From Bradyrhizobium sp. cir1 (GTDB lineage: Bacteria > Pseudomonadota > Alphaproteobacteria > Rhizobiales > Xanthobacteraceae): a stretch of 64,000 bases of DNA. The DNA lies in the NCBI RefSeq assembly GCF_014198245.1, contig NZ_JACIHE010000002.1, positions 338,275-402,274 on the forward strand, written 5' to 3'. Positions 37,290 through 53,820 of the stretch are shown one piece after another (positions within the stretch are counted from its first letter, which is position 1; every line of letters starts with the position of its first letter). Position numbers and translations under genes: made by a program. The notes under the pieces are model-generated. The model saw nothing but the letters and a program-made list of their open reading frames with translations, was not told the origin of the DNA and did not search any database.

Positions 37290-38030
37290 TCAGTCCTCTT
37301 GTCCGGAGCCTTGCGCGCGATTGCGCTTGAGTTCTTGTGCTTCGTAGCGGGCTTTGAGCGCCGGATCGCTGGTATCGCCAGCGACCGTATCCGCATCGCT
37401 GCCGTCTAGACCCGGTGCGGCCTTGATGGCGTCGGCAAGTCCCTTCAGGTCGGGGCTCTCCTGAACAAATGGCTTTAGATAGGCGTCGAGTTTGTCCTTA
37501 CCAGGCTCATCGAGCTCTTGGGTCAAGGCTGTAAGGTATTCATCCTTGCCGGTGGCGGACCAATCGATGCTGATCGCGGCACGCCGCGCCATCTCGGCAT
37601 GAACCAGCATAATCGTGCGTCCGTTGCCGTCGAGGAAGGGATGTCCATAGGCGAGATAGCCCATCACCTCGCCCGGTTTTTTCGCCATGAAGGCCCTGTC
37701 TTGGCCCTTCTCCAGCGCGTAGTTGATGGCTTTGCGAATATCGCTTGGATGCGCAAAGAGAACGGATCCCTTTTTCACAAAGATGTGGGGCGCATTCTTG
37801 AGGCGGTCCTCTCCGGCCCATGGAAACACCGCTTCGAAGAGCGTCTTGTGGGTCTGCTGCACGTCGGCGTAGGTCAGGGACGATCGCGCCTGAAGATACT
37901 CTACGGCGGCATCGATGCCGGTTAGGAACGAGTTGTGCAGAAGACGCTGAACAATGTCGGGATCCTTGGCTTTTGCGACGTTGCGCAAGTAACCTTGCGT
38001 CGCAAAATCACCGAAAGGATCGAAGGTCAC
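37290..38030 (-). CDS. Fic-domain AMP-transferase-type toxin
   Basis: A 246-residue Fic protein. The active-site motif HPFLDGNGRT is the full canonical HxFxDGNGR, so nucleotide transfer (AMPylation) to a target hydroxyl is expected. A polar, charged tail of about 45 residues follows the Fic core. The GTG start (38028-38030) overlaps the stop of the small upstream gene as GTGA, so the two are translationally coupled. I see no [S/T]xxxE[G/N] inhibitory helix in this protein, so any control should come from the partner. Toxin-antitoxin assignment is inferred from this layout. Confidence 0.85.
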   Translation of the reverse strand: MTFDPFGDFATQGYLRNVAKAKDPDIVQRLLHNSFLTGIDAAVEYLQARSSLTYADVQQTHKTLFEAVFPWAGEDRLKNAPHIFVKKGSVLFAHPSDIRKAINYALEKGQDRAFMAKKPGEVMGYLAYGHPFLDGNGRTIMLVHAEMARRAAISIDWSATGKDEYLTALTQELDEPGKDKLDAYLKPFVQESPDLKGLADAIKAAPGLDGSDADTVAGDTSDPALKARYEAQELKRNRAQGSGQED

Positions 38031-41575: not shown

Positions 41576-42859
41576 ATGGCAAAACCGTTCCCGTCGAAGA
41601 CCCATATCGGCAACCATATGCTGCATCCGGAAACCCTGATGCTGACCTATGGCTATGATCCGCAATTGTCGGAAGGCGCCATCAAGCCTCCGGTGTTCCT
41701 GACCTCGACCTTCGTGTTCAAGACCGCCGAAGACGGGCAGGACTTCTTCGATTATGTCGCCGGCCGGCGCGAGCCGCCGGAAGGCATGGGCGCGGGCCTC
41801 GTCTATTCGCGCTTCAACCACCCCAACAGCGAGATCGTCGAGGACAGGCTCGCGGTGTATGAGCGCACCGAAAGCTGCGCGCTGTTCTCCTCCGGCATGG
41901 CGGCAATCGCGACCACGATTCTCGCCTTCGTCCGTCCCGGTGACGTCATCCTGCACTCCCAGCCGCTCTATGGCGGAACGGAAACGCTGCTGACGAACAC
42001 GCTTGCGCGCCTGTCGATCGGCGCGGTCGGCTTTGCCGACGGCATCGATGAAGCCTCGGTCAGGCAGGCCTCGGAGGAGGCGATGGGCAAGGGCCGGGTT
42101 TCGATGATCCTGATCGAGACCCCCGCCAATCCGACCAACGGCCTCGTCGACATCGCGATGATCCGCCGCATCGCCGATTCCATCGGCAAGGCCCAGGGAC
42201 ACACGCCGATCATCGCCTGCGACAACACGCTGCTCGGCCCTGTGTTTCAGCGCCCGATCGAGCACGGCGCGGACCTGTCGCTGTATTCGCTGACGAAATA
42301 TGTCGGCGGCCATTCCGACCTGATCGCGGGCGCCGCGCTCGGATCGAAGGCGATCATGAAGGGCATCAAGTCGCTGCGCGGCGCCATCGGCACCCAGCTC
42401 GATCCGCATTCCTGCTGGATGATCAACCGCTCGCTCGAGACGCTGAGCCTGCGCATGGAAAAGGCCGATGCGAATGCGCGCCTGGTGGCGAGCTATCTGC
42501 GCGACCACCCCAAGGTCGCCAAGGTGCACTATCTCGGTCATCACGAGCAGGGCTCGCCCTCGGGCCGTGTGTTCGCGCGGCAATGCCTGGGCGCGGGATC
42601 GACCTTCTCGTTCGACATCGTCGGCGGCAAGGAGGCGGCGGTGAAATTCCTCAATGCGCTGCAGATACTCAAGCTGGCGGTGAGCCTTGGCGGCACCGAG
42701 TCGCTCGCGAGCCTGCCCGCGACGATGACCCATTCCGGCGTTCCCGCCGAGATCCGCCGGAAGATCGGCGTGCTCGATTCCACGATCCGGCTGTCGATCG
42801 GCATCGAGAACCCGTCGGATCTCATCGCGGATCTCGCGCAGGCACTGAATGCGGCTTGA
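41576..42859 (+). CDS. Cystathionine gamma-synthase / methionine gamma-lyase family PLP enzyme
   Basis: A 427-residue trans-sulfuration family enzyme. Motifs: [20 protein letters not shown], the substrate-side [10 protein letters not shown], the PLP cofactor region [32 protein letters not shown] and [13 protein letters not shown] where Lys forms the internal aldimine. The C-terminus has [20 protein letters not shown], as in methionine gamma-lyases and O-acyl-homoserine sulfhydrylases. Length is slightly above average owing to insertions. Gamma-elimination on methionine or cystathionine is likely, but sequence alone does not separate these activities. It has no close operon partners. Confidence 0.87.
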
Positions 42860-44047: not shown

Positions 44048-44971
44048 ATGCTGCGACGAACGCTTCTTGCCGCCCTGATCGCCGCCGTTGCGGCTTTCGG
44101 CCTTTATTGGCGGTTGACCGCCCCGGCGGCGCTGGCCGCGCCGGCGCCGACACGCAACCCCGATCTTGCCAACGGGCAGGAGCTGTTCAACGCCGGCGGC
44201 TGCTCGTCCTGTCATGCGGTGCCCAATCAGCCCGATCGCCTGCGGCTCGGCGGCGGCCTTGCGCTCGGCTCGCCGTTCGGGACGTTCTACGCCCCCAATA
44301 TTTCCCCCGATCCGGCCGACGGGATCGGCCGGTGGAGCGAGGCTGATTTCGTCAACGCCGTGATGCGCGGCATCTCGCCCGAGGGCACGCACTACTTCCC
44401 GGCGTTTCCCTACACGTCCTATCATCTGGCGAAGATCGATGACGTCCGCGACCTCTTCGCCTATCTGAAGACGCTGCCGCCGGTGTCCGGCAGAGTGCGC
44501 GACCACGCGCTGCCGTTTCCGTTCAACATCCGCCGCAATGTCGGCATCTGGAAACTGCTGTTCATGGACACCGGGCCGTTCGTCGCGGACGCCGCACGCT
44601 CCCCGCAATGGAATCGCGGGGCCTATCTCGTGAACGGTTTCGGCCATTGCGCCGAATGCCACAGCCCGCGCAATCTGCTCGGCGGCATCGTCACGGCGCA
44701 GCGCTTCGCCGGCGGCCCCAATCCGGAAGGAGAGGGCTGGGTGCCGAACATCACGCAGCAGGGCATCGGCAGCTGGAGCGAGAAGGACATCGCCGATTTC
44801 CTCGAGACCGGCGACATGCCCGAGGGCGACAGCGCCTCGGGCGCGATGCGGCCGGTGATCAAGAATCTGGCGCAACTGACGGCGGAAGATCGCGCCGCGA
44901 TGGCCGCTTATCTGAAGTCGCTGCCGCCGGTGCAGGGACCGACACCGCCCAAGCGCAAGGAGGGCAGCTAG
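44048..44971 (+). CDS. Diheme cytochrome c
   Basis: A 307-residue protein with an N-terminal membrane anchor or signal (LLAALIAAVAAFGLYWRLTA) and two cytochrome c domains with heme motifs CSSCH (52-56) and CAECH (201-205). Candidate axial methionines are present after each (GISPEG region and GAMRP). It resembles the cytochrome subunit that accepts electrons from alcohol, aldehyde or molybdenum-type dehydrogenases. No dehydrogenase is adjacent; the nearest redox gene is the CoxL-like one about 3.3 kb upstream. Its stop overlaps that of the convergent gene in CTAG. Confidence 0.87.
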   Translation: MLRRTLLAALIAAVAAFGLYWRLTAPAALAAPAPTRNPDLANGQELFNAGGCSSCHAVPNQPDRLRLGGGLALGSPFGTFYAPNISPDPADGIGRWSEADFVNAVMRGISPEGTHYFPAFPYTSYHLAKIDDVRDLFAYLKTLPPVSGRVRDHALPFPFNIRRNVGIWKLLFMDTGPFVADAARSPQWNRGAYLVNGFGHCAECHSPRNLLGGIVTAQRFAGGPNPEGEGWVPNITQQGIGSWSEKDIADFLETGDMPEGDSASGAMRPVIKNLAQLTAEDRAAMAAYLKSLPPVQGPTPPKRKEGS

Positions 44972-45410: not shown

Positions 45411-47390
45411 TTAGGAGGGCAGGGGCGCGCCGGCGAACGCGTCCCTGAGCCGATGGGCGAGCTCGGCATTGCGATAGGGCTTGGTGAGGACGATCGATTG
45501 GGCGTGCGCGCGGCCCTGCTCGACCAGGGTTTCCAGGGCGTAGCCGGACGAGAACACGACCGGCAGGCCGGGGCGGATGCGCCGGGCCTGGTCGGCGAGC
45601 TCCCAGCCGCTCATTCCGCCGGGCATCACGATGTCGGTGAACAGGAGGTCGATGGCCGGGTTGGTGCGCAGCAGCTGCAGGGCCTCCTTGCCATTGACGG
45701 CCGAGATCACGCGATATCCCAGCGCTTCCACGCGCAGCGTGACGGAGGAGCGGACGAACGGATCGTCCTCGGCGACCAGAATCGTTTCCTGGCCGCGGGG
45801 CGCGGCTTCCTCGCGCGCCTCGATGTTGGCGAGCGATTGCTCGCCGCCGGCATGCGGCAGGTAGATGCGGACCGTCGTGCCGAGGCCCGGCTCGCTGTAG
45901 ATCGAGACATGTCCGCCTGATTGCCTGGCGAAGCCATAGACCATGCTCAGCCCGAGGCCGGACCCCTTGCCGACCTCCTTGGTGGTGAAGAACGGCTCGA
46001 AGGCGCGCTCGATGACGTCAGGGGCCATGCCTTCGCCGTCATCGGTGACCGAGATCAGGGCGTAGCTGCCGGACGCGACCTCCGGATGCTGCATGCGATA
46101 GTGCTCGTCGATCGCGGTGAGCTCGGTGCTGAGGGTGAGATGCCCGCCCGATGGCATGGCATCCTGCGCATTCAGCGCGAGATTGAGCACGGCGGATTCC
46201 AGCTGGGCGCGGTCGGCGAAGGCCAGGATGGAGCCGGAGCCGAACGCCGTCCTGATCTCGATGTTCTCGCGGAGGGTACGCTTGAGCAGCTTGTGCATGG
46301 AGGTCAGGAGCTCGCGGCACTCGATAGCGCGGGGTTGCAGCAACTGGCGCCGGCTGAACGCCAGCAGCCGCTGCGTCAGCTCCGCGCCGCGTTCGCCCGA
46401 CTGGCAGATGTCGTCGGCGAAACGCTTGAGGTCAGGACGGGCCTTGAGCTGGTCGCTGAGATATTCCGCGTTGCCGATGATGACGGTGAGCAGATTGTTG
46501 AAGTCATGGGCGATGCCGCCGGAGAGCTGGCCGACCGTTTCCATCTTCTGCGCTTGCTGCAGCTGCTGCTCGGTCAGCTTGCGCCTGGTCAGGTCGTGAA
46601 CGATGCCGACATAGATCAGCTCGCCGTCCTGCCAGGCCTGCCCCACCGACAGGTCCATCGGAAAGCTCGATCCGTCCTTGCGCACGCCGACCGCTTCCCC
46701 GGTTGCGAGGCGCCGTTCTTGAGCGGTGGATGGGGGCCGCTTCTCGTCGGACATCAGCATGCCGATGTCGCGATTCATGACCTCGGCGGCGCGATAGCCG
46801 AACAGCCGTTCGCAGGCGGGATTGAACAGGAGAATGTGGGCTTGCGCGTCGAACAGGATGACGCCGTCGACCGCGGTGTCGACCACGGCGGTGAGGCGCG
46901 TCATGCTCTCGCGCAGCGCGCGCTGGGCTTCACTGACCTGGCCGAGCAGCTGCGCCGCATCCCGGTTCTTGGTCTCCTCCTCCAAGAGTGCGGCCTGGAC
47001 CTGCCGGAGCTCGAACGGCGAGGGGATGGTCAGGATCTTCGGCAGCAGCGGCCAGAGCGCGCCCGCGGTGAAGACCGACGCCACGGCGGTGAGCGCCTTG
47101 ACGATGCCCTCGATGCCGTAGACCGGCACCCAGAGCGTGTAGATCGACAGCACATGCGTCAGGCCACAGGCCATGATGAAGACGGCGAACGCCCAAAACA
47201 CCCATCCGAACTTGAGGTCGCGCCGTTTGGTGACGAGGATCGCAAGCGCGAACGGGATCGAGAAATATGCCAGTGCAATGCTGGCGTCCGAGACGACGTG
47301 CAGCCATATCAGCTCAGGCTCCCAGAGCAGGCAGATGCCGTGCGGGGAGAACATCGAGGAGTCGAGGAGACGTTCGAAATAGGCCCACAT
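45411..47390 (-). CDS. Hybrid histidine kinase with ethylene-receptor-like membrane sensor
   Basis: A 659-residue inner-membrane kinase. Three N-terminal membrane segments (about 28-53, 62-84, 95-119) match the ethylene-binding domain of plant ETR1: D35, Y42, I45, P46, I72, C75 and H79 fall exactly ten residues after ETR1 D25, Y32, I35, P36, I62, C65 and H69, the residues needed for Cu(I)/ethylene binding; K98 also matches ETR1 K91. Then come a PAS domain (about 165-270), a HisKA/HATPase unit with phospho-acceptor H295 in GGIAHDFNNLL, the G-boxes DDGEGM and GSGLGL, and a C-terminal receiver with D586 in LLFTDIVMPG. No separate response regulator is adjacent. Ligand binding is inferred from residue conservation. 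Confidence 0.88.
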   Translation of the reverse strand: MWAYFERLLDSSMFSPHGICLLWEPELIWLHVVSDASIALAYFSIPFALAILVTKRRDLKFGWVFWAFAVFIMACGLTHVLSIYTLWVPVYGIEGIVKALTAVASVFTAGALWPLLPKILTIPSPFELRQVQAALLEEETKNRDAAQLLGQVSEAQRALRESMTRLTAVVDTAVDGVILFDAQAHILLFNPACERLFGYRAAEVMNRDIGMLMSDEKRPPSTAQERRLATGEAVGVRKDGSSFPMDLSVGQAWQDGELIYVGIVHDLTRRKLTEQQLQQAQKMETVGQLSGGIAHDFNNLLTVIIGNAEYLSDQLKARPDLKRFADDICQSGERGAELTQRLLAFSRRQLLQPRAIECRELLTSMHKLLKRTLRENIEIRTAFGSGSILAFADRAQLESAVLNLALNAQDAMPSGGHLTLSTELTAIDEHYRMQHPEVASGSYALISVTDDGEGMAPDVIERAFEPFFTTKEVGKGSGLGLSMVYGFARQSGGHVSIYSEPGLGTTVRIYLPHAGGEQSLANIEAREEAAPRGQETILVAEDDPFVRSSVTLRVEALGYRVISAVNGKEALQLLRTNPAIDLLFTDIVMPGGMSGWELADQARRIRPGLPVVFSSGYALETLVEQGRAHAQSIVLTKPYRNAELAHRLRDAFAGAPLPS

Positions 47391-47661
47391 GATTGGGTTC
47401 CCGAGAGGATTGCGAGCCGGGGCCGGCCCGCAACATGGCGTCGCTGGACGAATCCACAGGCCAACCTCTCATTCATCGGAATCGATGCCAAGGCCGGGCG
47501 ACGCCGAGTCATATTTTGTGCACGATTGCGGGAAGACGGCGGCCCGGAGGCCCCGCTCTCCGCCTGATTCACTGGCCCATGGCCGGCCCGGCTTGCTGGC
47601 CCATCGGGGGCGCGCTAGGACAAAGCATGGCGGTGTCCTTCTCAAACGAACGTATCCGGCG

Positions 47662-48462
47662 ATGACGACGCCCGTTGCGCTCACCATCGCCGGCTCGGAT
47701 TCCAGCGGCGGCGCCGGCATCCAGGCGGATCTGAAGACCTTTGCCGCGCTCGGCGTCTACGGCGCCTCCGTGATCACGGCGCTGACGGCACAGAACACGC
47801 GCGGCGTCACCGGCATTCACGCCGTGCCGGCCGAGTTCGTCACCGCGCAGATTGATGCGGTGTTCTCCGATCTCGACATCGGCGCGGTGAAGATCGGAAT
47901 GGTCGGCCAGGCCGACAGCATCGATGCGATCGCAGCCGCGCTGTCGCGCTGGACGCCGCGCCACATCGTGCTCGATCCCGTGATGGTGGCGACGTCAGGC
48001 GATCGCCTGCTGGCGTCCGAAGCCGTCGACGCCTTGCACACGAGACTGCTGCCGCTGGCCTCGGTGATCACGCCGAACCTGCCGGAGGCCGCGGCTCTTC
48101 TCGGCGAGCCCGTCGCAGTGAGCGAGGCCGAGATCGAAAGCCAGGGGCGCCGGCTGCTGGCGCTCGGCTGCCGCGCGGTGCTGATCAAGGGCGGGCATGG
48201 CGAGGGCGCCGAGAGCATCGACTATCTCGTCACGTCCGGACACACGACCGCGCTCGCCGCGCCGCGCGTCGCCACCTGGAACACCCATGGCACCGGCTGC
48301 TCACTCTCCTCGGCGGTCGCCGCGGGGCTCGCCAAGGGCGAGGATCTCGAGCTTGCCGTGCGCAACGCCAAGGCGTGGATCAGTGCTGCGATCGCAGCCG
48401 CCGACCGCTTCAGCGTCGGCCATGGCCATGGGCCGATCCATCATTTCCACAAGTTTTACTGA
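47662..48462 (+). CDS. thiD: Hydroxymethylpyrimidine/phosphomethylpyrimidine kinase
   Basis: A 266-residue ribokinase-fold enzyme phosphorylating HMP and HMP-phosphate in thiamine biosynthesis. It has [20 protein letters not shown] at the start, the typical [29 protein letters not shown] and the anion hole [19 protein letters not shown] 47662 is used; upstream codons are not conserved. It stands alone, divergent from the histidine kinase. I looked for a TPP riboswitch in the 271-base gap before it and did not recognise one. Confidence 0.94.
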
Positions 48463-51793: not shown

Positions 51794-53641
51794 TCAGTGC
51801 ATGAAGCCGCGGTGGTTGTTGCCGCCGCCCATGCTCGGGGCCTGGTTCATCGACTGGCGGAAGTTGTTGTTGCTGTTGACCATGCGGTTCGGCGTCGTGT
51901 TGAGCTGCGGACGGTTGGTCTGCACGTTGTTCTGGACCTGCACCTTGTTCACCGGGTTGTTGTTGAGCTTCACGATGCCGGTGTTGCCGTTGTTGACGCG
52001 GATCGGGTTGTTCTGCGTCTGAACAGGCTTCACGTCGACGGTCGAGCCGCCCTTGCCGACATTCACCGGCATGCTCACGATCTTGCCAGGAGAGCCGTTA
52101 TTCGAGCCGCTGGTCGAACCGCTGGTCGCGCCGTTGGCAGTGCCAGCGTTGTTGCCGCCATTCGTCTTGGTGTTGGTTACGGGCAGGGTCACAATTTTGC
52201 CGGTGCCGCCCGTGTTGTTGGTCGTGTTGGTCGGCGCAGGCAGGGTGATGATCTTGCCCGGATTCTGCGACGGCGTGCCGTTCGGCTGGTTGTTGCCCGC
52301 CGGCAGGCTCCCGACCTGGCCGCCATTGCCGAACTTGCCGATGACGTTGCTATCGACCGGCTTCTGCACGACCGGCAGATTGCCATTGACCTGCGCACCA
52401 CCATTGCCCTGCATCAGCGGCATGTATTTGGGCTGGCCGAGATTGCCCATCTTGAAGATCGGGGCAATGTTCTGCGGCGCCAGGAACTTGGTCGGCTGCA
52501 TCAGGGGGATCTGCTTCGGCTGCGCCTCGAGCTTCAGCGCGACTTGCGCATAGGGGCTGTTGCCGTAGCTGTCATAGAAGCTCTTGTAGCCGAGCGGCGA
52601 GTTGGCGAGCACCGCCTTGTGCCAGGCCTGCGAGATCAGGAGGTTGTTGAGCAGCCAGCGGATGTGGTCGCACAGCGGGTCGTGCGGATACATCCGGATG
52701 AACTCCTGATAGTATTCCGGCCGTCCCTCGGACACGACATAGTCATAGGCCTGACGGGTCGAGCGGCTCGGCAGATTGGAGGCCATCTGCACCACGGGCG
52801 CATTCACGGGCATGCGGTTGGCGGCCACGGCGGTGTCGCCGAAGAAGGTGAAGTCGCTCGTGAGCGATGAGCTCTCCCACGGGATCTGTGCGCCGCTGGT
52901 GCTCTGGTTCACCTGAAGGCGGACACGCTTGAACAGCTGCTCGATCGGCACGTTGGGCTCGCGTGCGACGTTCAGGAAGGCTTGCGTGTACGGGCTGTGG
53001 CCGCCGGTGCCATCGAGCGCTTCGGCGCCCGGCGCGGTGGAATAGCCGACGATCGAGCCGTTCGGCGCATCGACGATTGCCAAGCCGCGGCCAGCGTCGT
53101 TCACGGTCGGGAACGGGTTGTTGCGGCAGGCATCGAGGATGACGATGCGCATGCGGCTCGGGATCGTCTCCAGCGTCGACATCACGTCGACGAGGCGCAC
53201 CGAATTGTTGACGAGCTCGGTCGGGCTTGAGACTTTTGCGTCGACCGGAACGAGATAGTTCTCGCCGGCGAGCTGCACGCCGTGACCGGCGTAGTAGACC
53301 ATCGCGACCGTGTTCGGGCCGCGCGCGGACACTTTTGCGGAGAAGTCCTGGACGACGCGGAGCATGTCGTTCTGGCCGAGGTCGGTTGCCGAGACCACCT
53401 CGAAGCCGGCGGAGTTCAGGAACTGCGCCATCGACTGGGCATCATTGTCGGGATTGGCGAGCTGCGGCGCGTTCTGGTAGTTCGAATTGCCGATCACCAG
53501 CGCGACGCGCTGCTCCGGCCCTTGCATGGCGGTGGGGGCAGGCTGGACCGGGGCGACTTGCGCGGAAACAGGGCCGCAGGCGAAGCCGAACAGGCTCCCC
53601 ACGAGGCTAGCCGTCATCAGGAAAGGCTTTAGGCGGAACAT
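51794..53641 (-). CDS. Exported caspase-like (peptidase C14) protein with Asn-rich tail
   Basis: A 615-residue protein from ATG at 53639-53641 (AAAGGAG ribosome site) with a signal peptide (LMTASLVGSLFGFACGPVSA, then QVAP). Residues about 43-265 form a caspase/metacaspase domain with catalytic His120 in YYAGHG and Cys172 in LDACRNNPF. A helical region (about 310-400) follows. The last ~200 residues are low complexity, rich in Asn, Gly, Gln and Thr, with three related motifs (PGKIITLP, TGKIVTLP, PGKIVSMP). Such orthocaspases are arginine- or lysine-specific proteases in the cases studied. Export plus a disordered tail suggests a periplasmic or surface role. No partner gene is evident. Confidence 0.85.
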   Translation of the reverse strand: MFRLKPFLMTASLVGSLFGFACGPVSAQVAPVQPAPTAMQGPEQRVALVIGNSNYQNAPQLANPDNDAQSMAQFLNSAGFEVVSATDLGQNDMLRVVQDFSAKVSARGPNTVAMVYYAGHGVQLAGENYLVPVDAKVSSPTELVNNSVRLVDVMSTLETIPSRMRIVILDACRNNPFPTVNDAGRGLAIVDAPNGSIVGYSTAPGAEALDGTGGHSPYTQAFLNVAREPNVPIEQLFKRVRLQVNQSTSGAQIPWESSSLTSDFTFFGDTAVAANRMPVNAPVVQMASNLPSRSTRQAYDYVVSEGRPEYYQEFIRMYPHDPLCDHIRWLLNNLLISQAWHKAVLANSPLGYKSFYDSYGNSPYAQVALKLEAQPKQIPLMQPTKFLAPQNIAPIFKMGNLGQPKYMPLMQGNGGAQVNGNLPVVQKPVDSNVIGKFGNGGQVGSLPAGNNQPNGTPSQNPGKIITLPAPTNTTNNTGGTGKIVTLPVTNTKTNGGNNAGTANGATSGSTSGSNNGSPGKIVSMPVNVGKGGSTVDVKPVQTQNNPIRVNNGNTGIVKLNNNPVNKVQVQNNVQTNRPQLNTTPNRMVNSNNNFRQSMNQAPSMGGGNNHRGFMH

Positions 53642-53820
53642 GGCGTGCTCCTTTCGGCACTCATCTCGATGCGAGATTGGTTGCGAGGAAGACTGGCCGC
53701 GTTCGAGCCCGGGGACCGTGATCCCTGTCACCATGGTAGGTTGCGTGATCTGAATCACGCTTGGAACCTGCTATGGTGAATGGCTGGCCAATGACATGTT
53801 GCCTGAGGAAATGCCGTCAC

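Follow-up and report, generated by a model that had tools for sequence, protein, structure and literature searches.

The plant ethylene receptor ETR1 is a hybrid kinase with a receiver, and the N-terminal cysteines of the protein form a dimer disulfide. Within the set of sequences compared here, the closest characterised relative of the protein described below is AzoEtr1 of Azospirillum brasilense; SynEtr1 of Synechocystis was outside the fetched set. According to the AzoEtr1 paper, residues 1-130 of AzoEtr1 bind radiolabelled ethylene saturably in yeast, disruptants show little or no ethylene binding, and the D35A and C75A versions do not restore biofilm formation (PMC11819568). The same source equates ETR1 D25, C65, H69 and K91 with AzoEtr1 D35, C75, H79 and K98, describes SynEtr1 as a dual ethylene and light receptor, which signals by phosphotransfer and requires the pocket Cys for binding, and states that plant ethylene receptors signal mostly without kinase activity (PMC11819568). 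Judged from titles and the openings of abstracts, the literature on microbial ethylene sensing names AzoEtr1 and SynEtr1 (PMC6682694), and also includes work on Komagataeibacter and on a fungal pair (Agaricus). No rhizobial or Bradyrhizobium ethylene receptor is named in these titles and abstract openings; the surveys of ethylene domains in bacteria to which PMC11819568 refers may include Bradyrhizobium proteins.

The window, i.e. the whole analysed stretch of 64,000 nucleotides of Bradyrhizobium DNA, contains an open reading frame with an ATG start, which encodes a protein of 659 amino acids (Table 1, stop codon included). The original prediction had placed a kinase gene at exactly this position without giving a strand; the gene lies on the minus strand. 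The fusion of PAS, kinase and receiver domains to the sensor was likewise confirmed, the PAS, HisKA, HATPase and receiver matches each scoring above their own Pfam cut-off. The ETR1_N domain (130.8 bits, E 2.3e-38, cut-off 27) was the single match to this family in the 8.65-Mb host genome, and the same search yielded 0 matches in 14 control genomes, thus the match is far above chance. With the HisKA His, the HATPase and the receiver Asp all present, the window gene encodes a hybrid histidine kinase. H295 and D586 were invariant in 136 of 136 close homologues (136 of 139 proteins, three outside 600-720 aa being excluded; the window protein is counted here and below). Of 7997 homologues, the 120 matches listed all had the same domains (ETR1_N, PAS, HisKA, HATPase, receiver). 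The named organisms among these 120 were Bradyrhizobium, save one labelled Frankia, and the best three among the matches listed were 95%, 93% and 93% identical to the window protein. The Bradyrhizobium diazoefficiens orthologue shares 93% identity with it. In our reading, to which we assign a probability of about 0.8, the protein is a hybrid kinase with a complete domain of the ethylene-binding type, likely working as an ethylene receptor. The proposed identity of the sensor is supported by the Pfam match, by the complete pocket and by 52% identity to the ethylene-binding AzoEtr1.

Table 1. Features of the kinase locus (positions in the window; residue numbers refer to the 659-aa protein)
Feature	Position	Strand	Basis
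Hybrid sensor histidine kinase, ethylene-receptor type (ETR1_N - PAS - HisKA - HATPase - receiver)	45411..47390	-	ORF and Pfam
ETR1_N ethylene-binding domain, residues 26-121	47028..47315	-	Pfam PF25487, 130.8 bits; recovered at the same place in the whole-genome search
Predicted helix 1, residues 25-55, with D35, Y42, I45, P46	47226..47318	-	AlphaFold2 model; alignment
Predicted helix 2, residues 62-87, with I72, C75, H79 (C75 and H79 presumed Cu(I) ligands)	47130..47207	-	AlphaFold2 model; alignment; AzoEtr1 C75, H79
Predicted helix 3, residues 91-120, with K98 (ETR1 K91)	47031..47120	-	AlphaFold2 model; alignment; AzoEtr1 K98
PAS domain, residues 165-268	46587..46898	-	Pfam, best among PAS models
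HisKA dimerisation domain, residues 287-349, phospho-acceptor His295	46344..46532	-	Pfam, homologue alignment
HATPase_c catalytic domain, residues 393-513	45852..46214	-	Pfam
Fused C-terminal receiver domain, residues 537-648, phospho-acceptor Asp586	45447..45782	-	Pfam, homologue alignment
Intergenic stretch upstream, between the divergent kinase and thiD genes	47391..47661	.	ORF map
thiD (hydroxymethylpyrimidine / phosphomethylpyrimidine kinase), conserved neighbour, outside the system	47662..48462	+	Profile matches, synteny
Cytochrome c protein, conserved neighbour convergent with the kinase gene, outside the system	44048..44971	+	Pfam, synteny

The pocket alignment comprised the window domain, ETR1 and 54 other domains. 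Left out were L001 (the window itself), L002 and L004 (duplicates of L016 and L017) and two pieces of L045, a fragment (554-1207) and a weak overlapping frame (928-2505). The seven pocket residues named in the original prediction were found where they had been claimed: D35, Y42, I45, P46, I72, C75 and H79 align with D25, Y32, I35, P36, I62, C65 and H69 of Arabidopsis ETR1 at an offset of ten through the first two helices. In helix 3 the offset drops to seven, and K98 is present at the position of ETR1 K91. We take Y32, I35, P36 and I62 to be residues that ETR1 requires for ethylene binding. The alignment with characterised ethylene-binding domains, which had been suggested as a check, thus gave a match at eight residues including K98.

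These eight residues were complete in all 26 other high-scoring Bradyrhizobium domains fetched and in 133 of the 136 close homologues. Among cyanobacterial relatives we took the best 80 of 571, and 78 of these had all eight; selection by similarity to a cyanobacterial query flatters the conservation in this set. Of 19 plasmid records with a match, 12 were fetched, and nine of the 12 named plasmid relatives had the complete set; the exceptions were Acaryochloris (K to Q), Deinococcus (P to A, K to R) and one of two Rhodovastum copies (D to S, K to D). A further conserved residue is C20, which occurs in 136/136 homologues and 80/80 cyanobacterial relatives and is aligned with one of the N-terminal cysteines of ETR1. 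The replacement of ETR1 Glu38 by Ala48 had been noted in the original prediction, with the comment that affinity may differ. Position 48 is indeed Ala, but the doubt about affinity falls, because the ethylene-binding AzoEtr1 likewise has Ala and, in the pocket, close-homologue and cyanobacterial sets, no aligned sequence except ETR1 has Glu at this position. In 10 comparisons the dN/dS of the ethylene domain was 0.06-0.26; the window gene is under purifying selection.

AlphaFold2 was run on residues 1-150 with an alignment that contained 34 cyanobacterial rows. The model has three long helices (mean pLDDT 82.1, pTM only 0.59; pLDDT below 50 for residues 14-19), with the Asp in the first, the Cys and the His in the second and the Lys in the third, in agreement with the three-helix N-terminus originally described. 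The domain is predicted to lie in the membrane. Searches of the PDB gave no sequence match to the ethylene domain at E <= 1 and no fold match to the modelled domain at E <= 0.001, thus the structural support consists of the helix prediction.

We infer membrane insertion, the copper and ethylene ligands, the direction of kinase control and the output, and the protein might work as follows. Three membrane helices in a dimer would hold Cu(I) between C75 and H79, with D35 and K98 positioning it, and ethylene would bind the copper. The resulting change would pass through the PAS linker and alter autophosphorylation of His295, which it would inhibit if the analogy with ETR1 holds. Phosphate would then move from His295 to Asp586 of the fused receiver, which would replace the separate response regulator encoded beside AzoEtr1, and from Asp586 to some phosphotransfer protein or to water. 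By analogy with AzoEtr1, the output may be surface attachment, biofilm formation or root colonisation, and carbon-nitrogen metabolism.

Eleven Bradyrhizobium loci with open frames of 683-867 codons were fetched, and in 10 of them the kinase gene is flanked by cytochrome c and thiD as in the window. In one of the ten syntenic loci (L015) the cytochrome c gene lies at a distance of about 4 kb; L011, the exception, is a member of a neighbouring subclade. The flanking genes are on the opposite strand, thus no partner can be read from the conserved gene order. Other neighbours encode a methionine gamma-lyase-like enzyme, a phosphoesterase, a glycosyltransferase and a dehydratase-like PLP enzyme, and in the scan of neighbouring ORFs we recognised neither a response regulator nor a gene related to ethylene. 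The first of these enzymes (41576-42859, plus strand) belongs to the methionine gamma-lyase / cystathionine gamma-synthase family (PRK07049, 767.6 bits) and is conserved near the kinase locus. The window also encodes, both on the minus strand, a caspase (Peptidase_C14) domain protein (51794-53758, 166.3 bits), which was matched in all ten syntenic loci, and a Fic/DOC family protein (37290-38030, 42.2 bits).

In loci fetched from genomes without the high-scoring domain, cytochrome c and thiD stood in the same order, with nothing between them that matched the kinase at the threshold of 45% identity across more than 60 residues, in 15 of 16 cases; in the sixteenth, thiD was outside the stretch. 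The two genes were within 600 bases of each other in seven of these loci and separated by 1.5-4.7 kb of other sequence in eight. The cytochrome c - thiD interval is thus a variable slot. Ten ORFs from seven of the eight filled gaps were searched with Pfam, which named at least one family in six gaps. The cargo of these slots (L138, L141, L147, L148, L150, L151) consists of NTP_transf_5 proteins, a DUF900 hydrolase, a zinc peptidase or a malate/lactate dehydrogenase; the slots of L139 and L153 measure 4.3 and 1.5 kb, and the one L139 ORF tried gave no family.

ETR1_N was present in 138 of 195 sampled Bradyrhizobium genomes. The best match reached at least 125 bits in 114, our definition of the high-scoring class, which counts any ETR1_N kinase and extends beyond orthologues of the window gene. 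Only weaker matches were found in 24 genomes and no match in 57, thus the gene is dispensable. The original prediction had also suggested a search for the sensor and for linked response regulators across the family. ETR1_N was found in 50 of 248 genomes and 15 of 47 genera in a sample of the family; no regulator turned up among the neighbouring ORFs scanned. In one genus of this sample (g23: G255, G339, G352, G373, G397, G419) the ETR1_N matches were very weak, about 27-35 bits in frames of about 440-500 codons, and possibly represent a further divergent branch. Genome G131 had five ETR1_N matches. Further Bradyrhizobium lineages with an intact pocket carry a PAS domain without a receiver (L005, L023) or a receiver without a PAS domain (L017, L018, L021).

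The host genome has matches above the cut-offs to both nodC and ACC deaminase. The high-scoring ethylene domain was present in 65 of 106 genomes with nodC and in 49 of 89 without it (Fisher p 0.39, genomes treated as independent and uncorrected for relatedness; p 0.88 in 183 better-quality genomes). We therefore rejected the domain as a symbiosis marker, a nodulation link being unsupported by co-occurrence with nodC; this independence points to a general trait of the genus and not to a symbiosis gene. ACC deaminase, above its cut-off in 171 of the 195 genomes, was too common to serve as a discriminating marker.

The independence from nodC, together with the lack of an ethylene-related gene among the neighbouring ORFs scanned, would also suit a receptor which uses the same Cu(I) site to sense copper or another small ligand or signal (acetylene, CO, redox) with no ethylene response of the cell. 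The site is primarily a Cu(I) site. We nevertheless consider this alternative unlikely: Y42, I45, P46 and I72, which the ethylene site of ETR1 needs, are conserved along with the residues around the copper, and the characterised relative AzoEtr1 binds ethylene.

Among solved structures the PAS domain is closest to the heme PAS of FixL (64.3 bits), and the window protein resembles FixL in having a PAS domain and in the PAS-then-kinase order. It is conceivable that the PAS domain is the true sensor, of oxygen via heme or of light via flavin, and that the membrane domain is a mere anchor, but several observations make this very improbable. Unlike FixL, the window protein has ETR1_N as membrane domain and, in the alignment, a Pro opposite the His of the FixL SRHDSYISRY stretch, which we take to be the heme ligand; the next seven FixL residues are missing. 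This disfavours a FixL-type heme oxygen sensor. By eye, we found no Cys-containing flavin motif in the PAS domain. The PAS was also the least conserved among the domains counted (mean 0.848 vs. 0.931 for the ethylene domain in the 136 homologues), and its dN/dS (0.23-0.44) was the highest in each of the 10 comparisons.

In two trees the window domain fell within a Bradyrhizobium group (14-row set) with support values of 95/98 and 99/96. The second tree, from which seven rows were excluded (six long branches and one near-copy), has a 100/95 branch that parts cyanobacteria and ETR1 from proteobacteria including AzoEtr1 and the window domain, the AzoEtr1 node being supported at 93/89; the long branches of ETR1, Deinococcus, AzoEtr1 and others make exact placement uncertain. 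Sixteen weaker-scoring Bradyrhizobium domains (L026, L027, L028, L030 and L032-L043), taken from 11 of the 24 genomes with that class only and from five with both classes, form one clade on a long branch (100/100 in both trees). All 16 keep D35, C75 and K98 and have Phe42, Ala46 and Arg79; the His presumed to bind copper has thus been lost in this sister clade. Pfam scans of three members (L034, L026, L035) showed hybrid kinases and gave no PAS match, and the proteins of the clade are possibly repurposed or locked receptors. A phylogeny placing the window protein in a family with another ligand had been named as evidence against the original prediction and was looked for; in both trees the protein is outside the His-less clade. 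In a subclade neighbouring the window group, L016 (G190) and L025 (G177) have short frames (529 and 240 codons), suggestive of truncation or a frame shift, or perhaps of an assembly error. The loss of His79, Pro46 and Tyr42 in all 16 sister-clade loci fetched and these short frames could suggest that the window protein, too, is decaying or has been repurposed and has ceased to bind ethylene, but with its intact frame, intact pocket, purifying selection and position outside the degenerate clade (100/100) this is hardly credible.

Returning to the ethylene receptor, we give about even chances to the broader idea that Bradyrhizobium has working ethylene sensing of its own, with several receptor lineages in over half of the sampled species and with a His-less sister clade re-tuned to another signal or to constant output. 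Bradyrhizobium is the genus of soybean symbionts, and ethylene restricts rhizobial nodulation and root colonisation. Bacterial lowering of ethylene by ACC deaminase has been studied far more than bacterial sensing. If this broader idea is true, the bacterium reads the very hormone with which legumes keep nodulation and root colonisation in check, in a genus where most genomes also carry the enzyme that lowers it. With a complete receptor pocket in a genetically tractable symbiont, rhizobial perception of host ethylene becomes directly testable, and the sister clade, lacking the copper His, is a natural comparison group for the residues that define the ethylene site.

It is useful to compare the window protein with known systems one half at a time. 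The kinase and receiver half resembles CckA and the PRK13557 family of PAS-kinase-receiver proteins. The scores (425.8 bits for PRK13557, 346.8 and 317.1 bits for two CckA models) fall far short of the curated cut-offs (631 and 1000 bits), and all three matches stop short of the ethylene-binding domain. As the NCBIfam equivalog cut-off of 1000 bits was not reached, the protein is not identified as CckA. Among solved kinase cores, 5idj (named histidine kinase) is the closest at 193.7 bits, followed by 5idm (named CckA) at 125.1 bits.

In the sensor half, the window protein shares with plant ETR1 the pocket residues and the helix order, with about 37% identity over the domain; unlike ETR1, which has a GAF domain after the sensor, it has a PAS domain there. 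Like SynEtr1 it is, as known from its sequence, a bacterial ethylene-type kinase with the pocket Cys; Pfam found no light-sensing domain of the SynEtr1 type between sensor and kinase, where only PAS models match. The resemblance to AzoEtr1 is the closest. The A. brasilense Sp7 protein is 52.2% identical to the window ethylene domain over 138 aa, and its locus, in which a receiver-like ORF (receiver judged by eye) overlaps the end of a 525-aa ORF, agrees with the published AzoEtr1 layout. AzoEtr1 and the window protein have D35, C75, H79 and K98 under identical numbers, the order ethylene domain - PAS - histidine kinase, and one such gene per genome (AzoEtr1 as reported, the window gene as found). 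They differ in that the receiver of AzoEtr1 (525 aa) is encoded by a separate gene overlapping its end, whereas that of the window protein is fused and no such gene lies directly downstream. The kinase cores are also of different kinds (GMAHEMSQPL in AzoEtr1, GGIAHDFNNLL in the window protein), thus the signalling half may behave differently. The same sensor appears to have been joined to different kinases, here to another kinase core and a fused receiver. The receptor family is already known, and the window protein is a new member of it, likely an ethylene receptor like AzoEtr1, with a fused receiver and a CckA-like kinase, in Bradyrhizobium, in which ethylene binding is suggested by the shared pocket.
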